DNA of 64,000 nucleotides from Alitta virens. Taxonomy: Eukaryota; Annelida; Polychaeta; Phyllodocida; Nereididae. A program made the translations under genes and the position numbers. Location of the stretch: positions 61,543,829 to 61,607,828 of the forward strand of contig OW028573.1 in assembly GCA_932294295.1 (NCBI GenBank), read 5' to 3'. Shown here piece by piece: positions 9,255 through 14,158 of this stretch. Position 1 is the first letter of the stretch, and every line of letters begins with the position of its first letter. A model generated the notes under the pieces. That model was not told the origin of the DNA, did not search any database, and was given only the letters and a program-made list of their open reading frames with translations.

Positions 9255-9574
9255 TGTTAATGATGTTACCCATTGTAAATGGTTGTTGACGTGAATAAAT
9301 GTCTGAGTGTGAGTCAGATTGAGTCCTAAAGCCCCGTTCCCACATAGCCGAGTTACTCGTAGTCAACTCGTAGGATTACGTAACACGCCTCTCGGGCCCA
9401 ACTCTTACTAAACTCGGCGATTACTCCTCGCACTCGAGAGATGCTCGGCGAGAAACTCCTGAGTCTCGTAGCGAACTCGTGAGATTTGGAGCCGAGTTTG
9501 CCGAGTCTCCCGAGTATGCCGTGCTGCACGGCACACTCGGCGGATTTTCAGGAGTTTCAAAATCTTGGTCATGT

Positions 9575-9785
9575 CTCGCCGAGTTACTCCTCGAACTCGC
9601 CGAGTTACTCCTTGAACTCGCCGAGTTACTCCTCGAACTCGCCGAGTTACTCGCCGAGTTACTCGGCGCTAATTTCACTCGTATTACACTCGACTGGATG
9701 TTCAGGAGTGCGAGGAGTAATTCGCCGAGTTGTAGGAGTAATTCGCCGAGTTGTAGGAGTAATTCGCCGAGTTGTAGGAGTGCCA
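9575..9785. repeat. Left subterminal repeat array of the Harbinger transposon
   Basis: Tandem ~21-bp units of the type CGAACTCGCCGAGTTACTCC, then a second run of ~21-bp units with GTAGGAGTAATTCGCCGAGT. The frames read as ELAELLLELA or similar and are artefacts. Likely transposase or ORF1-protein binding arrays (inference). Confidence 0.8.
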
Positions 9786-9929
9786 GAATTCAGTCGAGGG
9801 GGTTTAAAGTGTCACTCCGTGGGTTTAACCAGTGAATGATGTAGATCCAACGCGCTTGGACTAACTGCAAATGACGCAATGGTATCTGGGTTTGTTATGT
9901 CATCACAGCGGGGTACGCTCTCTAGGTAG

Positions 9930-9938: not shown

Positions 9939-10019
9939 ATTGACCAGTGATCAGGGGATCATTCAGCATTTTGCTAACACACATAGAAGACCAAAAGACC
10001 GCTCCAGAAATTTTTTATC

Positions 10020-11705
10020 ATGCCGATGAAAAAGACCAGGTTCGCCAAAAGGCCTGCAGTGGACACAGAACTATCTGCTGGATCTTCTGATGACTCTGAA
10101 AACCCGACAAAGACATCGCAGAAGACTGCTCTTCCTGTGAAGAAAATGAAGAAGTCTGCTCCAAGATCTCCTGTCAAGAGGACTACTGCTGCTGCAAGAT
10201 CTCCTGCCAAGAGGACTGCTGCTGCAAGATCTCCTGGCAAGAAGACTGCTGCTGCTGCAAGATCTCCTGCCAAGAGGACTACTGCTGCTGCAAGATCTCC
10301 TGCCAAGAGGACTGCTGCTGCAAGATCTCCTGCCAAGAGGACTGCCAAGACGCGTCTGCCAGTGCCAACAAGAACGTCATCAGATGCTGGCAGTAGTAAT
10401 GATGAGCCCCAGGTTGCTACTCCTGCGTCTGCTGCAGCACCTGCTACTTCTTCGCCTGCACCTGCTCCTTCGCCTGCTCCTTCGCCTGCTCCTTCGCCTG
10501 CTCCTTCGCCTGTTCCTTCGCCTGCTCCTTCGCCTGCTTCTTCGCCTGTTCCTTCGCCTGCTCCCTCGCCTGCTACTTCACCTGCTACGTCCGAAGTGCC
10601 TGCTACACTTTCCTATGTTGCCAGGAAAAAACAGGAAAAGTTGTTCCTGCCAGCCACTGATGAGCAGGATATCGCTGACTGGTTTAGAGACAATCCCATT
10701 TTTTATGACCGGACCTTGAAAGCCTACAAGGATTCAGGCAAGAAAATGGCCCTCATCAATGAGATGGCAAGGAAACTGAGTGTCCCCTGCACTGGATACC
10801 AATTGAAGACCTGGATGGAATCCATGCGGACTGTCGCAGGGAAACTAGTGCGGCAGGGACCATCTGGAACTGCGAAGAGGAACCCCACAGAGAAGGAGTG
10901 GTGGATTATATCGAATTTTGGATTCCTTGTGGACCACATTACACGTGTTCCAAGTCGCCGGGGGAACACTGCCCTCCAGAAGAAAATTGGCAAGGCACGG
11001 GAGACACTTAAAAATCTCGAGGAAGAAGAAGGGAGCTCTACTCCAGCTGATGATTCCGGGCCCCAGGAAATTTCTGATCCGGACATTTCTATGGATATCC
11101 CTCCTGTCCGGCAGACGAAGGGTGGTCCATACAAGAAAAGGAAAAGGTCCACGCCACCGCAATCTGGCATAGAAAATCTTGTTAACATTGCCAGACAGTC
11201 TACTGGAGTCATCCAGCAGACTATGCAGCAAATGGCCGTTCCTCCAAAGGGTTTGAAGGAGAGGCGAATCCGGGCGATGGGGGAGTTCATTGTCATGGAA
11301 TGCCTGTCCATGGATGATGAAGCATTTGAAGACCTGCACAGCAACCTGATCCCCACATTCATGCAGCTCAAAGCGAATGCCATTAGAGCCAGGTTCCAGC
11401 TGCAGCATCAACCCCAGCATCAACCTCAGCAATTCATGCAGCACCAGCAGCATCACCAGCAGCATCACCAGCAGCAGCACCAGCAGCAGCACCAGCAGCA
11501 CCAGCAGCAGCACCAGCAGCAGCACCAGTTCTATCCTCCTTCTGGGTCCCAGCATCAGGTGCACTTCCCACCAATGATAAGTCCAGAAAAGAATTGGCCA
11601 GCGGGAACCTCAGCAATGCCTCCTTCCGGAGCTCCATCCATGATTTCCGAGATTCCCACCACTTCAACTCCTGCTTTGAACATAAGCCAGTTTTTGAATG
11701 TTTGA
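10020..11705 (+). CDS. Harbinger ORF1: H1-tail + MADF/Myb-like DNA-binding protein
   Basis: Intact 561-aa single-exon protein. Residues 49-110 are a basic tail with six SPxKR/SPxKK repeats separated by alanines, the type found in histone H1 C-terminal tails that bind the DNA minor groove. Residues ~145-190 are a Pro-Ala-Ser repeat. Residues ~215-300 (DIADWFRDNPIFYD ... LKTWMESMRTV) look like a MADF/trihelix domain, the usual DNA-binding part of the second Harbinger protein. A basic KKRKRS nuclear signal follows. Residues ~400-445 (RRIRAMGEFIVMECLSMDDE) may be a BESS-like dimerisation segment, and ~460-515 are His/Gln-rich. In this superfamily the Myb/MADF protein helps import the transposase and bring it to the DNA. 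A TATA box precedes it, and a histone-type stem-loop follows 25 nt after the stop. It converges on the transposase gene. The H1-like tail is unusual. Confidence 0.88.
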   Translation: MPMKKTRFAKRPAVDTELSAGSSDDSENPTKTSQKTALPVKKMKKSAPRSPVKRTTAAARSPAKRTAAARSPGKKTAAAARSPAKRTTAAARSPAKRTAAARSPAKRTAKTRLPVPTRTSSDAGSSNDEPQVATPASAAAPATSSPAPAPSPAPSPAPSPAPSPVPSPAPSPASSPVPSPAPSPATSPATSEVPATLSYVARKKQEKLFLPATDEQDIADWFRDNPIFYDRTLKAYKDSGKKMALINEMARKLSVPCTGYQLKTWMESMRTVAGKLVRQGPSGTAKRNPTEKEWWIISNFGFLVDHITRVPSRRGNTALQKKIGKARETLKNLEEEEGSSTPADDSGPQEISDPDISMDIPPVRQTKGGPYKKRKRSTPPQSGIENLVNIARQSTGVIQQTMQQMAVPPKGLKERRIRAMGEFIVMECLSMDDEAFEDLHSNLIPTFMQLKANAIRARFQLQHQPQHQPQQFMQHQQHHQQHHQQQHQQQHQQHQQQHQQQHQFYPPSGSQHQVHFPPMISPEKNWPAGTSAMPPSGAPSMISEIPTTSTPALNISQFLNV

Positions 11706-11730
11706 AGACAACAGTTTTAAAACCATCCCC

Positions 11731-11746
11731 GGCCTTTTTCAAGGCC
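11731..11746 (+). terminator. Histone-type 3'-end stem-loop after ORF1
   Basis: GGCCTTTTTCAAGGCC forms a perfect 6-bp stem with a TTTC loop, preceded by a C/A-rich flank (ACCATCCCC) and followed by ACCAAA. This is the architecture of replication-dependent histone mRNA 3' ends (SLBP site). It begins 25 nt after the ORF1 stop. A histone-downstream-element-like AAAAGAG lies at 11760-11766, about 13 nt beyond the stem, the place where U7 snRNA would pair. Confidence 0.75.
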
Positions 11747-11759
11747 ACCAAATCCTCCC

Positions 11760-11766
11760 AAAAGAG
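11760..11766 (+). promoter_or_regulatory. Histone-downstream-element-like motif (ORF1)
   Basis: AAAAGAG lies about 13 nt 3' of the stem-loop and matches the purine-rich core that pairs with the 5' end of U7 snRNA. The same motif at the same spacing follows the transposase stem-loop. Confidence 0.5.
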
Positions 11767-12004
11767 CACGCCTTGTACACATATCTGTGTATAAACAATC
11801 AATCAAAAAAAAAAGTTCCAAAACCCTCCAAACTTTTCTCTATCTTTGTCCACGAAAGTATATTTTAGTCCAAAATCAATTTCTTCACATCAAGTAACTT
11901 GTTCATATTTCCTTTTCATTACAGCACAGATATTGGTCCATTTTTTTGTAATATTTCTTTTAATAAGGGTTAATAATTTTGATGAAAGAAGACATACTTT
12001 TTTT

Positions 12005-12233
12005 GGTTCAGAAGTGCCGTAGTTGTTGGTTGTTCAGAAGTGCCGTACTTTTTTTTTTGTTCAGAAGTGCCGTACTTTTTTTTTGTTCAGAAGTGCCGTA
12101 GCTGTGTCTTGTTCAGAAGTGCCGTATTATTTTTTTTGCTTCAGAACTGCCGTAGTTTTTTCTATTATACTGCAATGAAAATAATGAAAGTACGGCACTT
12201 CTGAACAACCAACAACTACGGCACTTCTGAACC
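12005..12233. repeat. Inverted-repeat cluster of TTCAGAAGTGCCGTA between the two transposon genes
   Basis: Six plus-strand copies of TTCAGAAGTGCCGTA (12007, 12033, 12060, 12086, 12112, and 12140 with one mismatch) are separated by T-rich spacers of about 11 nt. Two minus-strand copies follow (12191-12205, 12217-12231). The outer two copies on each side form a perfect 44-bp inverted repeat (12005-12048 with 12190-12233). It sits exactly between the two histone-type 3' ends. It may be a nested MITE, a binding array or a transcription barrier. Confidence 0.85.
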
Positions 12234-12303
12234 AATAAAATATTTTGTGTGGGTCAGACAGGAACTTTTTTTTTATTACACAAGAAGTGTACATGGTCTG
12301 CTC

Positions 12304-12310
12304 TTTTGGG
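12304..12310 (-). promoter_or_regulatory. Histone-downstream-element-like motif (transposase)
   Basis: On the minus strand the stretch after the stem-loop reads ACCAAATCCTCCCAAAAGAG, matching the sequence after the ORF1 stem-loop base for base. Confidence 0.5.
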
Positions 12311-12320
12311 AGGATTTGGT

Positions 12321-12336
12321 GGCCTTGAAAAAGGCC
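12321..12336 (-). terminator. Histone-type 3'-end stem-loop after the transposase gene
   Basis: On the minus strand, GGCCTTTTTCAAGGCC begins 20 nt after the transposase stop (12357). It has the C/A-rich upstream flank AACAACCCC and downstream ACCAAA, identical in stem and loop to 11731-11746. The two genes share no coding similarity, so the 3'-end block was either duplicated and kept or is maintained by selection. Confidence 0.75.
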
Positions 12337-12356
12337 GGGGTTGTTTTGTGGAATCT

Positions 12357-13682
12357 TTATACCATGTCATCTTGCCATGGCACTCTTCCTTCTTCTGAAT
12401 TGACAAAGTCCACCAAGTACTGCCGTTGATTCTTGGCTGCTTCAGTCATAGAATGCCCTCTATTTGTTGGTGGCATTTCATCGATTTCTCCAGCTGCCCT
12501 CCAAGTTCCTGGGATGATACGATGTGTGATTGGATCTTCATGGTCCAGCATGATGTTCTGAGCAGTCGGATAAGTTATTCTCATCAGATTGTGGAGGCAG
12601 CAACATGCAATGACTATAGATTCCACTGTCTTAGTTCTTTGTGGCATGGTAGTCAGGAGACACCTGAACCTTGCTGCAAGGATCCCAAATGCGTTTTCCA
12701 CAATTCTTCTTGCCCGGGAGAGGCGGTAATTGTATATCCTCTGCTCTTTGGTCATGTTTCTGAGAGGCAGTGGCTTCATCAGCCAGGTTCTCAAGGGGAA
12801 GGCATCATCTCCGACAATGAAGTAGGGAAGAGGTCTGTGACCAGGAAGAATTGGTTCAGGTGGAGGTAATCCAATGGTCCCTTCTTCAAGTCCTTCTCTC
12901 AGGAGTGTATCATTAAAAACTCCTCCATCAGATCCAGCGCCGTTTGCTCCACAGTCTACATAGAGGAACTTGTAATCAGCATCCACAAGAGCCATGAGTA
13001 CGATGGAATGGAAGCCCTTGTAATTGAAATACACTGAACCACCTTTTGGAGGACATTTGATGGCCACATGCTTCCCATCAATGGCTCCAATACAGTGAGG
13101 AAAGTTCCACCTTGAATAGAACAGTTTCGCAACTTCTCTCCACTCTTCTGGAGTTGTGGGGCATGCCAGGACATCTTCATTATACTCCGCAATGATGGCT
13201 TCACAGACTTCTCGAATTATGTTGCTGATGGTATTGTAAGCCACTCTGAAGCCATACATGAGGGACCTGTAGCTGTTTCCAGTTGCCAAATAGCGGAGGG
13301 TGATGGCAAGTCTGAGTCCTGGCTCCAAAGATTTCCTCCAGAAGGTGTCTTCTTTGGTAATCCTATGACCTATTTTGCCAAGGATCCCTTGAAACATGGC
13401 TGGTTCCATTCTCAAAAAGTTAGTATAACTAGAAGTGTCCTCTTGCATCAGTTCAGTCAGTAGACGCTCATACTGTCCCATCTGAGGTCTTCTCAGCAGC
13501 CAGGGCCTCACCCAATACCTCCTTCTCCTCTTCCTCCTCATGGCTGCTAATTTTCTTTCTTCTTTCTTCTTACTATCCTCATCCTCAAGTAATGCTGCTG
13601 CAACAACAGCAAGTTGCAGATTCGCATGAGCAGCTAGTAGTACCAAGACTCTATTCTGATGTTCTGTCTGATGCATGTCCAT
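12357..13682 (-). CDS. PIF/Harbinger (HARBI1-type) DDE transposase
   Basis: Intact 441-aa protein without stops. It has an N-terminal basic patch (MRRKRRRRYW, ~48-57), a helical region similar to HARBI1 (RLAITLRYLATGNSYRSL, ~124-141) and then the DDE nuclease fold: GAIDGKHVAIK with D202, GAGSDGGVF with D252, VGDDAFPLR with D292/D293, and RRIVENAFGIL with E329. D202 and E329 are clear catalytic candidates; which aspartate is the middle one I leave open. The family length is 350-450 aa, so this copy is full length. It cuts and inserts Harbinger DNA at TWA sites, normally with the Myb/MADF partner encoded here by ORF1. The start is supported by a TATA box ~60 nt upstream, and the 3' end carries a histone-type stem-loop. 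Confidence 0.92.
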   Translation of the reverse strand: MDMHQTEHQNRVLVLLAAHANLQLAVVAAALLEDEDSKKKEERKLAAMRRKRRRRYWVRPWLLRRPQMGQYERLLTELMQEDTSSYTNFLRMEPAMFQGILGKIGHRITKEDTFWRKSLEPGLRLAITLRYLATGNSYRSLMYGFRVAYNTISNIIREVCEAIIAEYNEDVLACPTTPEEWREVAKLFYSRWNFPHCIGAIDGKHVAIKCPPKGGSVYFNYKGFHSIVLMALVDADYKFLYVDCGANGAGSDGGVFNDTLLREGLEEGTIGLPPPEPILPGHRPLPYFIVGDDAFPLRTWLMKPLPLRNMTKEQRIYNYRLSRARRIVENAFGILAARFRCLLTTMPQRTKTVESIVIACCCLHNLMRITYPTAQNIMLDHEDPITHRIIPGTWRAAGEIDEMPPTNRGHSMTEAAKNQRQYLVDFVNSEEGRVPWQDDMV

Positions 13683-13749: not shown

Positions 13750-13819
13750 TTTTTGTAATTAAACACAGCTATTTGCATAATAATTTAAGTAATAACCCTG
13801 ATGAGTATCATGAGTATAA

Positions 13820-14060
13820 CTCGTCGACTTTACGAGTTACTCCTGGTACTCGGCGAGTTACTCCTGGTACTCGGCGAGTTACTCCTGGTACTCGGCGATT
13901 TACTCCTCTAACTCGCCGACACTCTCCTCGAGATCGTTCACTAATTGGCTGCAACTCGGCGAGTCACTCCTGGTACTCGGCGAGTCGCTCGCTGAACCCG
14001 CCGAGTAACTCGGCGAGTAATTCGGCGAGTAACTCGGCGAGTCACTCCTGGTCATTTTTT
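13820..14060. repeat. Right subterminal repeat array of the Harbinger transposon
   Basis: Repeated units of the type GGCGAGTTACTCCTGGTACT (~21 bp) with variants. This mirrors the left array but with a different consensus. Confidence 0.8.
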
Positions 14061-14158
14061 CCGCAAAAATTCGTCGCCAACTCCTCGAATTTTGGGTGTT
14101 ACGTAATTTTTGTTATTACTACGAGTTGACTACGAGTAACTCGGCTATGTGGGAACGG

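Follow-up and report, generated by a model that had tools for sequence, protein, structure and literature searches.

Histone-type stem-loops follow both genes of a PIF/Harbinger-type transposon in Alitta virens

The transposon and its gene ends

The 64,000-nucleotide (nt) stretch of Alitta virens DNA analysed here (the window) is situated at C1:61543829-61607828 in a genome of 671 Mb in 23 contigs. It contains a PIF/Harbinger-type transposon of about 4.8 kb, which is bounded by 45-base-pair (bp) terminal inverted repeats that are 96% complementary and has two convergent genes with uninterrupted reading frames, open reading frame 1 (ORF1) on the + strand and a transposase on the - strand. The same histone-type stem-loop, GGCCTTTTTCAAGGCC, lies 25 nt past the stop codon of ORF1 (11703-11705) and 20 nt past that of the transposase, on the sense strand both times. 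The features of the transposon, in window positions, are:

9334-9378, + strand: left terminal inverted repeat, 45 nt, 96% complementary to 14114-14158
10020-11705, + strand: ORF1, a MADF/Myb-SANT-like protein (PF10545, 2.1e-6); the frame spans 9987-11705 and the gene begins at its first ATG
11731-11746, + strand: histone-type stem-loop after ORF1, GGCCTTTTTCAAGGCC (RF00032, 28.8 bits)
11747-11767, + strand: ACCA site, spacer and purine-rich downstream element AAAAGAGC of the ORF1 end; block 88% identical to host H3 and 92% to H2B
11773-11794, + strand: second small hairpin past the element, ORF1 end, of the ACACA..TGTGT type (fold; ACAC...TGTG is also found past host H2A, H2B and H3)
12277-12291, - strand: second small hairpin past the element, transposase end (fold)
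12300-12320, - strand: ACCA site, spacer and downstream element AAAAGAGC of the transposase end; block 94% identical to host H3, H2A and H2B
12321-12336, - strand: histone-type stem-loop after the transposase, GGCCTTTTTCAAGGCC (RF00032, 30.7 bits)
12360-13682, - strand: transposase, 441 amino acids (PF13359, DDE_Tnp_4, 6.3e-30); stop codon 12357-12359
14114-14158, - strand: right terminal inverted repeat, pairs with the left repeat

Structure prediction folds both stem-loops into a 6-bp stem with a TTTC loop. Each is 16 nt long, with GG/CC at the base of the stem, a T-A closing pair and a loop of 4 nt. The first-pass annotation of the window had reported this repeated 16-mer after both stop codons, and its sequence, fold and coordinates were right. 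Both stem-loops are followed by ACCAAATCCTCCCAAAAGAGC, and the sequence after the stem at the transposase end is ACCAAATCCTCCCAAAAGAGCAGACCATGTACACTTCTTGTG. A chance match of the 16-mer can be rejected: two matches with at most two mismatches are present in the window against 0.05 expected by shuffling, and the likeness to host histone ends extends over about 50 nt. Past the second hairpin the two gene ends have in common an A-run followed by GTTCC (11805-11819 and 12261-12274), suggesting that one 3' module was copied onto the other gene.

A default Rfam scan of the window gave nothing at gathering scores. At the E-value level, RF00032 (Histone3) matched both transposon ends over all 46 positions, and both of their scores (28.8 and 30.7 bits) miss the cut-off of 34 bits. 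The host ends score 24.5 (H3), 25.7 (H2A), 27.0 (H2B) and 31.5 bits (an H2AX-like gene), three of the four lying below both transposon ends and one above them. Because all four scanned host ends fall short of the cut-off too, it is uninformative on membership here.

Comparison with the host histone genes

When the host genome was searched with Pfam histone models, 54 matches were found, 46 of which are situated in a tandem cluster at C12:25.15-25.28 Mb. Over 30 overlapping loci cut from this cluster, the identical 16-mer lies within 150 nt of 45 of the 46 distinct gene ends (H3 14/15, H2A 16/16, H2B 15/15); H4 was looked for in these loci and not found. The stem is followed by ACCAAATCCTCCAAAGAGAGCAGACCATGCACACATTTTTGTG in H2A, ACCAAATCCTCCAAAGAGAGCAGACCTTGTACACTTTTTGTG in H2B and ACCATATCCTCCAAAGAGAGCAGACCATGTACACATTGTTGTG in H3. 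The expected likeness to the host's own genes was thus confirmed, the stem-loop being identical and the downstream element nearly the same. A 5S ribosomal RNA gene is also found within the histone cluster (L069 2730-2848).

Over the stem-loop and the following 34 nt (50 nt in all), H3, H2A and H2B each share 94% of positions with the transposase end and are 96% identical among themselves. The corresponding values for the ORF1 end are 88% to H3 and 92% to H2B. The flanks of this block were judged against 500 shuffles. Downstream, over 60 nt starting 66 nt on, the transposase end is 40, 47 and 49% identical to the host ends, which is the level of shuffled sequence. The same is true of the 40 nt upstream for H2A (53%) and H2B (49%). 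The upstream identity to H3, 61%, was reached by 6 of the 500 shuffles, and the likeness to H3 may therefore begin slightly earlier. At the ORF1 end, the downstream flank is 59% identical to H3 (6/500 shuffles); the three remaining comparisons of its flanks do not rise above shuffled sequence. The first-pass annotation had described the histone likeness as a stem-loop and a downstream element; both are present as described, and its extent was underestimated, since the likeness covers about 50 nt plus the second small hairpin.

A separate H2AX-like gene of the host, L052, whose product ends in SQEY, has the stem GGCCCTTTTCAGGGCC, followed by ACCCAAATCCTCCCAAAAGAGC, which is the element form of the transposon. 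AATAAA is present further downstream of its stem-loop.

Copies and diverged lineages

The transposon is young and multi-copy. The 16-mer has 1163 exact copies in the genome, and a reversed-pattern control gave none. Among the best 95 of 2552 candidates scored in a transposase search, 28 are 100% identical to the transposase of the window, its own copy included. Twenty copies were picked from the 95 by their transposase match and not by the stem-loop, and the 75 nt past the stop codon were examined in each. This set leans towards older copies, with transposases 90-100% identical to that of the window and none from the 81% group. A fully paired stem-loop is present after the transposase in all 20, as the exact 16-mer in 19 and with a loop change in one. 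The downstream element occurs in the forms CCAAAGAGAG and CCCAAAAGAG. On contig C1, the 16-mer is found at the gene end of 10/10 transposases of the same lineage, taken within the range of the listed 16-mer places. Ten other DDE_Tnp_4 matches, from a search that scored 150 of 1656 candidates, have no exact 16-mer within 5 kb; the share of random positions that have one is 0.8%.

Evidential weight is carried by the comparison between lineages and not by retention among close copies. In a diverged lineage, the transposases are 57-65% identical to that of the window (L012 and L039), or 45% over a C-terminal segment (L001). All three loci have the stem-loop and the element after the transposase. 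L039 also has both after ORF1, and in L001 and L012 stem-loops are found on both sides. Between the window and L039, whose transposases are 65% identical, the block is 94% identical and its flanks 50 and 45%, which is the shuffle level. In comparisons of the window with the closer L011 and L048, the block is 98 and 90% identical, respectively. A pattern in which the flanks are kept and the stem pairing is lost, named beforehand as evidence against histone-type processing, did not appear in any copy or lineage examined; the window and L039 show the reverse.

Fifteen further loci were compared, of which 12 match the transposase or ORF1 of the window, one is the H2AX-like gene and two (L054 and L060) match neither. 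Some ORF1 ends have two to five stem-loops in tandem (L040 2171-2264; L042 2353-2472, with up to five; L053 1021-1114), and the downstream element follows only the last stem-loop of each run seen. When 12 distinct blocks were aligned, all 72 stem cells were found to pair, and five of the six base pairs are invariant. The remaining pair changes from T-A to C-G, on both sides, in three of the 12 blocks. This paired change gives modest support, because the stem hardly varies and a search for the stem had itself yielded several of the blocks.

The 16-mer with ACCAAA had no match in viral_contigs, and the transposase profile found no relative there. In genome_contigs the profile matched one contig, which ends shortly past the transposase frame and is thus uninformative on the 3' end.

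The same block in other mobile elements

L006 (1501-3016) encodes a Mutator-like transposase (PF20700, 2.5e-34) in a broken frame, and the same stem-loop lies 30 nt past the end of this frame. The loci L027-L038 closely resemble one another around the stem-loop, which in L027 (1526-1541 and 2772-2787) is situated 34 nt past one gene and 18 nt past a RING-like gene. L065, a neighbour of this family, encodes a PC4 domain (1.5e-10); two of its other frames look, by eye only, like a packaging ATPase and a capsid protein. Neither of these two gave a Pfam family, and the capsid-like frame had no match when its sequence was searched against the PDB. The many-copy L027/L065 family is called Polinton-like on the strength of the PC4 domain and of the frames read by eye. 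L016-L025 and L026 have the stems GGCCCTTTTAAGGGCC and GGCCCTTCTAAGGGCC with related downstream elements.

It is rather likely that DNA mobile elements of several unrelated kinds in this animal (two or more diverged Harbinger lineages, a Mutator-like element and a Polinton-like family) use the histone 3' processing of the host for their own genes and would form a replication-coupled class, in which the stem-loops far outnumber those of the histone genes.

L016 (1525-1540) and L017-L025 are a repeated family with an SGNH-like reading frame (weak GDSL match) and the end stem GGCCCTTTTAAGGGCC.

Identity and other features of the transposon

The element is of the PIF/Harbinger type, having a DDE_Tnp_4 transposase, a MADF/Myb-like ORF1 and terminal inverted repeats. 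The target duplication of PIF/Harbinger elements is 3 bp, TWA; no clear 3-bp repeat was seen by eye at the one pair of transposon ends that was read. The related Spy and ISL2EU groups, which differ in target duplication (PMC4482050), are possible alternative assignments.

Arrays of ACTCGGCGAGT-type repeats are situated inside both terminal inverted repeats (about 9545-9790 and 13800-14060) and are perhaps binding sites of the transposase. A long hairpin between the two gene ends (11998-12240) is made of repeated GTTCAGAAGTGCCGTA units in both orientations, and several Rfam microRNA models match it far below their cut-offs. Similar units are also found after the transposases of L040 and L042.

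Interpretation

Both genes of the transposon end in a full-length counterpart of the module by which the host processes its histone 3' ends, and its mRNAs would, very probably, be cleaved by the SLBP and U7 machinery of the host and be poly(A)-free S-phase transcripts. This reading had been proposed in the first-pass annotation and is supported, at the level of sequence, by the checks that were run. The module consists of an SLBP-type stem-loop, the ACCA site, a spacer, the purine-rich downstream element and the small downstream hairpin. Histone pre-mRNAs are bound by SLBP and the U7 small nuclear ribonucleoprotein and cleaved by CPSF73, and the products are stable in S phase. By analogy, the same machinery would cleave the transposon pre-mRNAs past the stem-loop, after ACCA, yielding unpolyadenylated mRNAs that would be stable and translated mainly in S phase. 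The transposase and the ORF1 protein would then appear together during DNA replication. Excision from replicated DNA can raise the copy number, and we conjecture that the element might benefit while replicated and unreplicated DNA coexist.

Several observations weigh against this interpretation. Retention of the stem-loop among the 20 copies is weak evidence, because their transposases are so close to that of the window (90-100% identical), and the downstream element of these copies is AAAAGAGC in 10, AAAACAGC in 8 and AACAGAGC in 1, being altered in nine of the 20 and lost in one. The 16-mer is no general need of DDE_Tnp_4 elements, because the other matches on C1 live without it. In two of the three lineage comparisons, those with L011 and L048, the flanks are 58-64% identical, above the shuffle level, with no more than 2 of 500 shuffles as high. 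AATAAA occurs 59 nt past the start of the transposase stem-loop, and A[AT]TAAA is present within 150 nt at three of the 18 ends compared, which are 3/14 ends of mobile elements and 0/4 of the host.

The host has SLBP, whose RNA-binding domain was found in two pieces at C8:22055147-22055967, which are read as two exons of one gene. U7 was not securely identified, which also weakens the case. A search with RF00066, in which 65 of 159959 first-look candidates were scored, gave five weak matches at E values of up to 10; all of them miss the cut-off, and the model also matches in 12 of 14 control genomes. Three of these matches were fetched and none is convincing as U7, one of them matching only in part. 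A U7 pattern search gave 22 matches against eight for the reversed pattern. L122 was rejected, having no convincing U7 stem. In L123 (C1:47107046), AGCTCTTTTGGGG is situated upstream of a AATTTGTCTAG site, the form of the U7 Sm site in vertebrates. L123 pairs over 12 bp with both elements of the window and over 13 bp with that of H2AX. Of 500 shuffles of each target, 3 and 1 attain the pairing energy for the window elements, 3 for that of H2AX, and 5, 15 and 42 for those of H3, H2A and H2B. For the AAAACAGC form and the Mutator-like, Polinton-like and L016 elements, the counts are 52, 64, 67 and 281, the last being at chance. L123 is only a U7 candidate, because it has no RF00066 match.

The AATAAA past the transposase element would make a dual mode possible. 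Vertebrate H2AX has dual 3' ends, formed by S-phase processing or by downstream polyadenylation. If the transposon used its ends in the same manner, with read-through polyadenylation besides S-phase processing, its genes would be expressed during S phase and outside it. Such a dual mode shares ground with histone-type processing and, as a distinct account, appears possible though rather unlikely. AATAAA is also visible at L040 and at the transposase ends of L042 and L043, the latter two outside the set of 18, and the H2AX-like gene of the host combines a stem-loop, this element form and AATAAA further down. However, A[AT]TAAA was absent within 150 nt of the stem-loop start in all three ORF1 ends compared (window, L041 and L039), and only 3 of the 14 mobile-element ends have it.

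The block might also be a passive relic, a captured histone 3' end that spread with the element and has no effect on its mRNA. With 28 of the 95 scored copies at 100% identity, retention among young copies needs no selection, and the altered or lost downstream elements fit such a history. Nevertheless, a relic is improbable, given that the block of the window and L039 is 94% identical while both flanks are at shuffle level, and that the block is found past the stop codons of both genes and again in elements of unrelated kinds. We give slightly less credence still to titration of SLBP or U7 as the main action of the element, with any influence on its own mRNA being secondary. The 1163 exact 16-mers against 54 histone-fold matches in the genome, and the runs of up to five stem-loops at the L042 ORF1 end, would suit titration, but the confinement of the downstream element to the last stem-loop of each run is explained by simple self-processing. 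Least credible is that the hairpin acts as DNA, as an internal transposase-binding or cruciform site with a superficial likeness to histone ends. The two stem-loops do lie near mid-element and are inverted relative to each other; however, this leaves unexplained the 94% match to histone ends over 50 nt and the position just past the stop codons, and the subterminal ACTCGGCGAGT-type repeats would be more natural sites for the transposase.

To our knowledge, histone-type 3' ends are regarded as nearly private to replication-dependent histone genes. The first-pass annotation knew of no DNA transposon with such ends, and none was found in the literature for any transposon, as judged from titles and the beginnings of abstracts, with subscription papers and preprints largely outside the search. 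For comparison, 26 histone downstream elements are reported from a wasp genome (PMC9160881), and histone stem-loops are treated in PMC6210712 and PMC5011920. If histone-type processing of the transposon is correct, its proteins would be coupled to S phase by RNA processing and not by a promoter, with mRNAs free of poly(A). Active transposons of this kind would be missed by poly(A)-selected RNA-seq, and it could be tested directly when cut-and-paste transposition takes place relative to replication.

Comparison with known systems

The transposon resembles other members of PIF/Harbinger (PHIS superfamily) in its DDE_Tnp_4 transposase, its MADF/Myb-like second protein, its terminal inverted repeats and its many copies. 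It differs in its histone-type 3' ends, which none of the papers found describes for PIF/Harbinger elements, as judged from titles and the beginnings of abstracts; the 10 other DDE_Tnp_4 matches checked on C1 are without the 16-mer within 5 kb. With H2AX it shares the CTCCCAAAAGAGC form of the downstream element, which is carried by L052; the stem of L052, however, is GGCCCTTTTCAGGGCC and is followed by an additional C, whereas the transposon has the stem of the core histones. Histone genes typically have uninterrupted reading frames. The replication-dependent histone genes of metazoans (RF00032) are matched by the transposon in this respect, in the short distance from stop codon to stem-loop, in the 16-nt stem-loop and ACCA identical to those of host H2A, H2B and H3, and in the near-identical spacer and purine-rich element with ACAC..TGTG beyond. 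The difference lies in the products, which are a DDE transposase and a MADF protein instead of histones.

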